The notes under the pieces: model-generated
The model's input: the letters and a program-made list of their open reading frames with translations, nothing else
The model's database searches: none
Told to the model about the DNA's origin: nothing
Shown: piece by piece, positions 53,190 through 57,960 of the stretch
Layout: the number at the start of each line of letters is the position of its first letter
How positions within the stretch are numbered: position 1 is the stretch's first letter
Source: Hyphomonas neptunium ATCC 15444
GTDB lineage: Bacteria; Pseudomonadota; Alphaproteobacteria; Caulobacterales; Hyphomonadaceae
NCBI RefSeq assembly: GCF_000013025.1
Contig: NC_008358.1
Location: forward strand, 3,162,001-3,226,000
Reading direction: 5' to 3'
Length of the DNA: 64,000 nucleotides
Program-made: the position numbers and the translations under genes

Positions 53190-55382
<2,193 letters not shown>

Positions 55383-55454
55383 AAAGACCTAGATTAAAAT
55401 TTCTCCTACAGATAGTTGACTTAAGTTTCCTACAAGCGCAACGATTGACTACCG

Positions 55455-55474
55455 CTATTGCTTTCGAGCAATAG
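55455..55474 (+). other. TTCG hairpin immediately before the tRNA
   Basis: CTATTGCT and AGCAATAG form a perfect 8-bp stem closed by a TTCG tetraloop, ending 4 nt before the tRNA 5' end. It may be a leader-processing signal, or a terminator-like end for uvrB. A TTGACT at 55445 could be the -35 of the tRNA promoter. Confidence 0.55.
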
Positions 55475-55478
55475 TTGC

Positions 55479-55550
55479 GGGGAGTTAGCTCAGCGGGAGA
55501 GCGCCCGCCTGAAAAGCGGGATGTCGCGGGTTCAAATCCCGCACTCTCGG
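55479..55550 (+). tRNA. tRNA with GAA (Phe) anticodon, atypical acceptor
   Basis: A full cloverleaf can be drawn: T8 A9; D-arm GCTC/GAGC with GG in the loop; anticodon stem CCCGC/GCGGG with loop CTGAAAA (anticodon GAA at 55511-55513); variable loop ATGTC; T-arm GCGGG/CCCGC with loop TTCAAAT. The acceptor stem GGGGAGT/ACTCTCG has a G3:T70 wobble, a G1/G72 mismatch and a G discriminator (55550), and no CCA is encoded. It is not a normal bacterial tRNA-Phe (A73 expected); the body is nearer in look to tRNA-Ala. It could be a chimeric or a decaying tRNA. It stands 96 nt after uvrB. Confidence 0.72.
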
Positions 55551-55597
55551 TTCCTGAAACTGGATACGTTAGGCCGCATTAAAACTATTCGCGATCC

Positions 55598-55682
55598 GTA
55601 GGGTGCATTAAGCGCAGCGCAATGCACCACCCCGCGCCCCACCCAACGGTGCATTGCGGCCTTCGGCCTTAATGCACCCTAC
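55598..55682. repeat. Palindromic intergenic repeat
   Basis: GTAGGGTGCATTAAG at the left end and CTTAATGCACCCTAC at the right end are exact reverse complements, and a second inner pair is GCAATGCACC/GGTGCATTGC. The element of 85 bp looks like a REP/MITE-type palindromic repeat found in many proteobacterial intergenic regions. It lies between the tRNA and the convergent gene at 55688. Confidence 0.7.
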
Positions 55683-55687
55683 CTTCC

Positions 55688-56443
55688 TCACTCCCGCCGC
55701 GTGAACTTCACCGGAAACGCGTCCTCCATCCCGTAGAGCTTCTTCCCGGCCGGTATCTCCGGCTCGGGCTTGGGAAGGATGCTTCGCCCACGGGAGACCG
55801 CCCTTAAAGGGGGCGGGTTTCCGCGGCCGGGGAAGAGGCGCCATTTCTTCACCTCCTGTCTCAGCCGGAAAAGTTCTTCCAGCTCGGCCAGACCCTCGGC
55901 CACGCGCTCGTCCTCTGTCGCGTCCGGCGGCAGCGGATTTTCCGCGCGGGCCGCCTTGATGGCCTCCCAGATCGGCGCGTCCCCTTCCCGCTCGCGCAGC
56001 TCCTCAGGGGTCGGCTCGGGGAAGACAGGCGCCCGCCCCTCCTTCTCCGCCTGCACCATCTCGTCCAGCTCCTCGATCGCGCGGCTGCGCCAGTCCTCCT
56101 CTTCATCCTCCGGCGGCGGATAATCCTCCAGATGCTCCTTCAGCGCCTTGTGCCCGCGCGCCAGCTTCTGCGCCTCGCGCAGCCATTTGAGGTCATAATC
56201 GAGATACCCCTCCTCGATCGCCGCCACCGCGCGCAGCCGCGCCTCGCCGGAAAGCTCCCCCAGCCGCTCCAGCCGCGCGCGCGGGGCCATATCCTTCAGC
56301 TCGGGATAATCCGCCTTCCCCGTAAGCCGGAGCCCGCCCGCCAGGCTCGCCCGCGCCAGATGCCGGAGAGAGCGGGAGGTGGCCCGCGTTTTGACGTCCC
56401 GGGTCCGCTTGAGTGGGGGTGTGGGCGCAGCAACATCCATCAT
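55688..56443 (-). CDS. Hypothetical acidic protein
   Basis: A 251-residue protein of unknown family. The N-terminal 45 residues are basic. The middle (about residues 60-190) is helical and very acidic, with a PPPEDEEEDW run and PEPTPEELRERE. The C-terminal part is basic and ends KLYGMEDAFPVKFTRRE. No membrane segment and no catalytic motif seen. Its stop lies 5 nt after the palindromic repeat. The codon-third-position GC pattern supports a real gene; there is little else to go by. Confidence 0.6.
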   Translation of the reverse strand: MMDVAAPTPPLKRTRDVKTRATSRSLRHLARASLAGGLRLTGKADYPELKDMAPRARLERLGELSGEARLRAVAAIEEGYLDYDLKWLREAQKLARGHKALKEHLEDYPPPEDEEEDWRSRAIEELDEMVQAEKEGRAPVFPEPTPEELREREGDAPIWEAIKAARAENPLPPDATEDERVAEGLAELEELFRLRQEVKKWRLFPGRGNPPPLRAVSRGRSILPKPEPEIPAGKKLYGMEDAFPVKFTRRE

Positions 56444-56502: not shown

Positions 56503-56550
56503 TCCTTCGTCACCCTCGACGGGCTAACGCCCGTCGAGGGTGACGAAGGA
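56503..56550. repeat. Perfect 22-bp inverted repeat with TAAC loop
   Basis: The arms 56503-56524 and 56529-56550 are exact complements (core CGTCACCCTCGACGGGC and partner), around a 4-nt TAAC loop. It lies between two unrelated genes on opposite strands. No T tract follows on either side. Likely a REP-like dispersed palindrome or a terminator; only comparison with the rest of the genome could tell. Confidence 0.65.
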
Positions 56551-57030: not shown

Positions 57031-57960
57031 ATGACGATGATGCGAACCGACCTCGACCACCTCCCTCATGGCAAGCAGCGCGAACTCGCCCGCGTGACGG
57101 AGATCCTGTTCGAGGAATTCACCGACGCCATGAAAGGCGCTTCTTCCCCGAAGAAGAAGGAAGGCCGCATCCTCAAGATTATTCTGTTCGGATCCTATGC
57201 GCGCGGCACTTGGGTGGACGAGCCCCACACGGAAAAGGGCTATCTCAGCGACTACGACCTGCTGATCGTCGTCAACCAGCAGAGCGTGGTCGATTTTGCC
57301 ACCTATTGGTACCGCGCCGAAGACCGGATCATGCGGGAGACCGGGATCAGGACCCCGGTCAATTTCATTGTCCACACGATGGACGAGGTGAACTCCGCCC
57401 TCTCCCAGGGCCAGTATTTCTTCACTGACGTCGTCAAAGAGGGCGTCGCGCTCTACGATCTCAAAGGAAGCACGCAGTTTATCACGCCCCAGCCGCAGAC
57501 GGCGGAAGAGGCACTGGCGACCGCGGAGAAGCATTTTGAGCAACGCATTGAAGGCGTGCGAAGCGCGCTAGAATTCTTCAGATTTGGCGTAGATGCAGGA
57601 CGTTACAATGATGCGTCGTTCATGCTGCATCAGGCTGTAGAGCGCCTCTACGCTTGCCTGCTCCTTGTAGAGACGAACTATTCGCCTTCGACCCACAGCA
57701 TCAAGTTCCTCCGCTCGCTGGCTGAGCAGATCGACCCGGACCTGATTGCCGTCTGGCCGCGTGAGACCAAGCAGGACCGGCGGCTGTTTGAATTGCTCAA
57801 GCGCGCCTATGTCGATGCGCGGTACTCAGAGCATTATGCTATCACGGCCGAAGAGCTTGCCTGGCTGGGGGAGCGGGCGGAGATCCTGCGAGCACTCGTT
57901 GAGAAGCGGGCGAGCGGCAAGATCGAACAATTGAAGGCCAGGGCATTGAACGGGGACTGA
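57031..57960 (+). CDS. Nucleotidyltransferase-HEPN fusion protein
   Basis: A 309-residue two-domain protein. The N-terminal nucleotidyltransferase domain has GSYARGTW and SDYDLLIVV (the two metal-binding aspartates). The place of the usual third Asp is NFIV. Residues 165-300 form a HEPN domain (SFMLHQAVERLYACLLLV, then THSIKFL and YVDARYSEHY, with an RxxxH rather than the RX4-6H seen in HEPN RNases). In many bacteria NTase and HEPN partners are separate toxin-antitoxin genes (MNT-HEPN); here they are one polypeptide, of the well-known fused type. Function is not established. Start may be the ATG at 57031, 57037 or 57040. Confidence 0.88.
   Translation: MTMMRTDLDHLPHGKQRELARVTEILFEEFTDAMKGASSPKKKEGRILKIILFGSYARGTWVDEPHTEKGYLSDYDLLIVVNQQSVVDFATYWYRAEDRIMRETGIRTPVNFIVHTMDEVNSALSQGQYFFTDVVKEGVALYDLKGSTQFITPQPQTAEEALATAEKHFEQRIEGVRSALEFFRFGVDAGRYNDASFMLHQAVERLYACLLLVETNYSPSTHSIKFLRSLAEQIDPDLIAVWPRETKQDRRLFELLKRAYVDARYSEHYAITAEELAWLGERAEILRALVEKRASGKIEQLKARALNGD

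Follow-up and report, generated by a model that had tools for sequence, protein, structure and literature searches.

A tRNA gene with a phenylalanine anticodon on a body of unclear isotype in a variable spot behind uvrB of Hyphomonas neptunium

Introduction

What would a tRNA do in the cell if its anticodon pointed to one aminoacyl-tRNA synthetase and its acceptor stem to another? This question is raised by a tRNA gene in the stretch of Hyphomonas neptunium ATCC 15444 DNA analysed here (64 kb, hereafter the window). A preliminary description proposed that this gene combines a phenylalanine anticodon with an alanine-type body, such that it might place alanine at Phe codons, or alternatively that it is a decaying or horizontally acquired gene. 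Hybrid-identity tRNAs are easily overlooked because annotation follows the anticodon, and tRNAscan-SE 2.0 is described as being able to flag disagreement between anticodon and isotype (PMC8450103). Here we compare the gene with the other tRNAs of its genome, with relatives and with viral and plasmid sequences, and weigh the explanations that could account for it.

Results

Structure of the gene

The gene (Table 1) is a complete tRNA that scores 64.0 bits under the covariance model of Rfam RF00005 (E = 1.4e-11), ranking 27th by score among the 42 tRNA matches of the single-contig 3.7 Mb genome. ARAGORN calls the region Phe(gaa) at 55478-55551 and reports no other tRNA in the window. The acceptor stem has a G1/G72 mismatch, followed by G2:C71, G3:U70 and four ordinary pairs, while the D-stem, anticodon stem and T-stem are fully paired and the variable loop is AUGUC; as read from the sequence, 20 of the 21 stem pairs are standard if G3:U70 is counted. 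The complete cloverleaf, the GAA anticodon and the G3:U70, G1/G72 and G73 features given in the preliminary description were all confirmed by the sequence, ARAGORN and Rfam.

Energy folding gives a less clear picture than the covariance model. Taken by itself, the tRNA has as its minimum-energy fold the cloverleaf minus pair 1:72, with a z-score of -1.25 (24 of 200 shuffles were equally or more stable) and a centroid that is no cloverleaf; with the leader included (55440-55560), the minimum-energy fold is no cloverleaf either, and seven pairs of the hairpin immediately 5' of the tRNA are present in the predicted fold. A scan of 55300-55750 for promoters and terminators returned none of either, which says little because only 0.1 and 0.5, respectively, were expected by chance.

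Table 1. Coordinates of the tRNA gene, its parts and the features around it (positions in the window)
Feature	Position	Strand	Basis
uvrB, left border of the variable spot	53190..55382	+	Pfam UvrB domains
Filling from the uvrB stop codon to the next conserved ORF	55383..55683	.	GC, comparison with relatives
8-bp hairpin with TTCG loop, immediately 5' of the tRNA	55455..55474	+	Read from sequence
tRNA gene, anticodon GAA, positions 1-73, without encoded CCA	55479..55550	+	Rfam RF00005, ARAGORN
Acceptor stem, 5' strand GGGGAGT; G1 opposite G72, G3:U70 pair	55479..55485	+	Sequence
Anticodon GAA in loop CTGAAAA (55509-55515)	55511..55513	+	Read from sequence; ARAGORN
Acceptor stem, 3' strand ACTCTCG plus discriminator G73; then TTCC, not CCA	55543..55550	+	Sequence
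Uncharacterised ORF, right border in G008, G022 and G063	55688..56443	-	Without Pfam family

Comparison with the genome's own tRNAs

All 42 tRNA matches of the genome were extracted, giving 41 native genes for comparison. CCA is encoded in all 41, which makes the gene studied here the only one of the 42 without it. G3:U70 is found in two of the 41, namely both tRNA-Ala genes, and its description as alanine-type is borne out to that extent. A 1:72 mismatch occurs in a single other gene, a tRNA-Met with C1/A72, the known mark of the initiator. That this gene might be the sole tRNA-Phe of the genome had also been considered; an ordinary tRNA-Phe with G1:C72, A73 and CCA was found elsewhere (G000:C1:1773317-1773388). 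The two share the GAA anticodon, U33, A37 and A38, whereas the G1:C72, C3:G70, A73, U20, U59 and CCA of the native gene are all absent from the one behind uvrB.

The likeness to alanine tRNAs is uneven. Both native tRNA-Ala genes have G1-G4 on the 5' side, G2:C71, G3:U70, G4:C69, G20 and the D-stem in common with the gene, but have C72 and A73 where it has G72 and G73, encode CCA, and differ from it in the anticodon arm, variable loop and T-arm. The D-arm had been called Ala-like; it does resemble that of alanine tRNAs (G20, GAGCGC), though not of these only. The same claim for the variable loop does not stand, as ATGTC recurs in the native tRNA-Val(TAC); the tRNA-Ala genes have AGGCC and AGGTC. 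The native Val genes differ in turn by C4:G69, A73, a Val anticodon and CCA.

By global alignment, the nearest native gene is tRNA-Asp, with 57 identities, compared with 48 and 46 for the tRNA-Ala genes and 46 for tRNA-Phe. Because the other native genes reach best cross-isotype scores of 55 to 101 (31 genes compared, with Leu, Ser and Tyr omitted), an interval that includes its score of 83, the gene is not a recent duplicate of any native tRNA found, and we reject that origin. tRNA-Asp also gives the longest native match across the gene (73%), with the remaining native matches spanning 19-21 bases. These alignments bear on a further explanation, namely that a mobile element integrating into a native tRNA gene left behind a fragment or duplicate. 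Such fragments are reported to be widespread in prokaryotes and a source of false tRNA genes (PMC9897764), and the site behind uvrB is variable; however, the gene retains all four arms and shares no long stretch with the native tRNAs. An attachment-site fragment is largely refuted, there being no fitting native tRNA and the gene not being a partial native copy, and this origin is hardly credible.

Within the genus, a pattern that takes in either type of Phe anticodon had matches in 36 of 42 genomes and in none of the other six; 35 of the 36 have the same native core, and G026 has a variant that deviates from the pattern at one position. Among the 42 scanned by pattern, the genome of the window alone has a second GAA gene, the second matches in G020 and G033 having anticodon GCC (Gly).

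Isotype of the tRNA body

For isotype profiles with the anticodon masked, the training set was limited to the tRNAs of the 113 viral control loci; of 964 such sequences, 682 were non-redundant, and six of these (Pyl and SeC) had no profile. The profiles named the correct isotype for 36 of the 41 native genes, with a median margin of 14.1 bits among the correct ones. The body of the gene scored 45.8 bits for Val, 43.4 for Asn, 42.7 for Met and 41.8 for Ala; Asp ranked 12th and Phe, at 21.1 bits, 15th of 20. Anticodon and body thus disagree, as the preliminary description had supposed, and the low Phe score is conservative because the training set is rich in Phe genes. Among the ten nearest viral tRNAs, five are Val, two Asn, two Gly and one Met, in a neighbour test that named 35 of the 41 native genes correctly.

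An alternative training set that included loci chosen for their likeness to the query gave Val 48.5, Ala 44.3 and Phe 21.9 bits and was correct for 36 of 41 native genes; with a query-like training set, seven of the ten nearest tRNAs were Asp, with Ala in first place. The query-like set was replaced by the set of viral controls only. The Val profile leads that of Asn by just 2.4 bits, and the body is without clear isotype, leaning at most weakly to the viral tRNA-Val that supply its best profile and half of its nearest neighbours. A specifically alanine-type body is not supported, as three profiles exceed that of Ala and the matches in the phylum are to tRNA-Asp.

The latter come from a sample of 398 genomes, in each of which no more than two candidates were scored; five non-self genomes had a match at E up to 1e-8, all of them tRNA-Asp at 79-81% identity. 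Class tRNA-Asp genes (L253-L257; 79-81% BLAST identity) share with the gene the stretch GTCGCGGGTTC and C32-U33-G34, but have anticodon GUC, encoded CCA and a longer D-loop, and their acceptor stems are out of register in the alignment. An origin from tRNA-Asp is not claimed, since these five matches stand against the low rank of the Asp profile.

Determinants for charging

For phenylalanine, the strict set is G34, A35, A36 and A73, with U20 and U59 in addition in E. coli (PMC9976931). The gene has the GAA anticodon, with G73, G20 and A59 in place of A73, U20 and U59. It might nevertheless be a working accessory tRNA-Phe, charged by PheRS through GAA, given CCA afterwards and reading UUC and UUU as Phe. 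Its three anticodon bases are the main Phe determinants (PMC9976931), its stems are nearly all standard, and the genome encodes one PheS and one PolyA_pol-family nucleotidyltransferase, a candidate CCA-adding enzyme by family match only. We nonetheless consider this unlikely: one of the four strictly conserved Phe elements is missing (PMC9976931), U20 and U59, both kept by the native tRNA-Phe, are replaced, the genome already has that normal gene, and the Phe profile score is low beside the 63.3 bits of the native tRNA-Phe, which was obtained under a slightly different training set.

For alanine, the main determinant is G3:U70, and G1:C72, G2:C71 and A73 are conserved across all known prokaryotic tRNA-Ala (PMC9976931). 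G3:U70 and G2:C71 are present in the gene; C72 and A73 are absent. An alanine-accepting chimera that inserts alanine at Phe codons would be in keeping with the confinement of G3:U70 to two tRNA-Ala among the other 41 genes, with the single AlaRS of the genome, with the conversion of a plant tRNA-Phe into an AlaRS substrate by G3:U70 (PMC9976931), and with the finding that G73 modulates but does not block alanylation of E. coli tRNA-Ala (PMC6451123). This mistranslation reading is weakened by G1/G72 and G73, which depart from the conserved elements; G1.U72 acts as an antideterminant towards the AlaRS of E. coli (PMC9976931), and the texts consulted on determinants describe no effect of G1/G72 itself. 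In addition, the Ala profile ranks fourth, behind Val, Asn and Met, the gene is not conserved in relatives (see below), and no synthetase was recognised among the 30 window ORFs scanned with Pfam (29 of them within a set of 51 chosen ORFs). We regard such a chimera as very unlikely, and alanine at Phe codons, judged by these sequence elements, as possible but unlikely.

Because the Phe and Ala sets are each only partly present, each synthetase would recognise one main signal but lack others, and PheRS and AlaRS would probably both charge the tRNA poorly.

The site behind uvrB

The DNA that contains the gene, immediately behind uvrB, is AT-richer over 0.3 kb: GC content is 38.5% in the leader (55383-55478) and 43.5% in the 46 bases 3' of the tRNA, compared with 62.5% for the window. 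A UvrB match was obtained in 40 of the 42 genus genomes, including that of the window. Among 29 uvrB loci of relatives, whose flanks extend to about 1.5 kb at most, none had sequence that aligned to the tRNA. In six relatives with longer stretches, sequence divergence starts directly after the uvrB stop codon, and ARAGORN found no tRNA in the stretches behind it. Three of them (G008, G022 and G063) have about 2.0, 1.6 and 2.0 kb of other DNA, respectively, before the next conserved ORF, whose homologues there are 76%, 70% and 67% identical; homologues of this ORF were found in 7 of the 41 other genus genomes searched. In G030 and G023 a later gene is reached less than 200 bp behind uvrB, and in G034 the contig stops after 1.2 kb. 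The GC content and the differing inserts of relatives fit a small variable insertion spot.

The insert of G063 (L111:5456-6689) carries a gene pair that matches the candidate defence system PDC-M34A/B, with Pfam matches to DUF5343 and Swt1-like HEPN, and because of this pair the DNA 3' of uvrB resembles a small site for cargo or defence genes. The tested insert ORFs of G008 and G022 had no Pfam or PADLOC match. Among the Pfam-scanned ORFs near the tRNA there was no integrase or transposase, and no vehicle for its acquisition was identified there.

Several other elements lie in this part of the window. Between the tRNA and the next ORF, a palindromic repeat at 55597-55683 (GTAGGGTGCATTAAG...), which we label REP-like, has related stretches across the genome (for example, G000:C1:3627605-3627690 at 91%), and the insert of G063 has a 30-base piece resembling the window's repeat at 55590-55619. 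The gap past the uncharacterised ORF contains an inverted repeat whose 22-bp arms match perfectly around a 4-base loop (56503-56550). The protein encoded at 57031-57960 combines a nucleotidyltransferase and a HEPN domain in a single chain (Pfam), with weak matches to candidate defence models, and DNA matching this region is also found behind uvrB in G030.

Distribution in other genomes, viruses and plasmids

Conservation of the gene in relatives, to which the preliminary description had looked as a check, was not found: a core pattern with up to two mismatches matched in none of 397 other genomes of the order, and an anticodon-free pattern with up to three mismatches in none of 384 other genomes of the class, each a sample of a larger group. 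Two exact degenerate patterns likewise gave nothing in a collection covering 84,980 species, which was searched with exact patterns only and may lack the window's own or very near genomes. Six query-specific exact patterns matched no viral contig, so we do not assign the gene a viral origin; the scan itself works, since a control pattern for ordinary tRNA-Phe recovered 113 viral loci.

Distant tRNAs were matched in 27 records of a phage collection and 11 of a plasmid collection. This raises the idea of a phage- or plasmid-type tRNA retained for a non-translational or defence-related role. Such tRNAs are likewise foreign and often lack CCA: 371 of the 964 tRNAs in the viral loci examined were not CCA-ended, as parsed from ARAGORN output, and the three plasmid matches inspected (80-83% alike) are situated in tRNA arrays. 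The candidate defence pair at the same spot in G063 would also agree with such a role. However, this gene is single and outside any array, being the sole tRNA of the window, and its exact patterns matched no viral contig; we hold such a role to be very unlikely. G3:U70 was seen in 2 of 80 CCA-ended viral tRNA-Phe, both on sequences shortened in parsing, and is uninformative.

Discussion

The gene is real and odd, and an acquired orphan of low or no present use is its best-supported account. We suggest, with moderate confidence, that an orphan tRNA came with foreign, AT-richer DNA into the variable spot behind uvrB and is now an accessory gene or a relic that contributes little or nothing to translation. 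Of the alternatives raised in the preliminary description, horizontal acquisition fits best, given the absence of the gene from the order and class genomes and its location in a variable, AT-richer site. Against this account stand the nearly perfect stems, which speak against long decay, and a search of the collections that found no donor. The acquisition would most likely be recent. By the covariance model the tRNA is still a cloverleaf, with a Phe anticodon on a body of unclear isotype. If transcribed, it would require post-transcriptional addition of CCA, and the mature tRNA would be a weak substrate of PheRS as well as AlaRS. What the comparisons show are the sequence features, the rarity of the gene in the collections searched, the variability of its site and the disagreement of anticodon and body; its horizontal origin, weak charging and dispensability we infer.

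It would be tempting to see here a new tRNA with a Phe anticodon that, through low-level charging by AlaRS, inserts alanine conditionally at Phe codons in one strain, with the 1:72 mismatch and G73 keeping the charging tolerable. This idea is speculative and the chances that it is correct seem slim. No Ala-charged bacterial tRNA for Phe codons is described in the literature searched, judged by titles. Among the closest known cases is tRNA-ProX of Streptomyces and Kitasatospora, in which a Pro body bears other anticodons and ProRSx adjoins (PMC10365949, PMC11415595); further hybrid tRNAs have been noted in bacteria (PMC11415595). Both tRNA-ProX and the gene behind uvrB have the anticodon of one amino acid on the body of another, but ProX constitutes a family, its body is clearly of the Pro type, and a dedicated synthetase is reported beside it; none of this was found here.

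The gene is called Phe although it lacks A73, U20 and U59 and has the main Ala determinant. It would serve as a compact test of how position 1:72 and N73 control recognition by AlaRS as opposed to PheRS. Should the gene be a relic, it would warn against taking anticodon labels for function, and would be a sign that single tRNA genes can travel in small variable spots.
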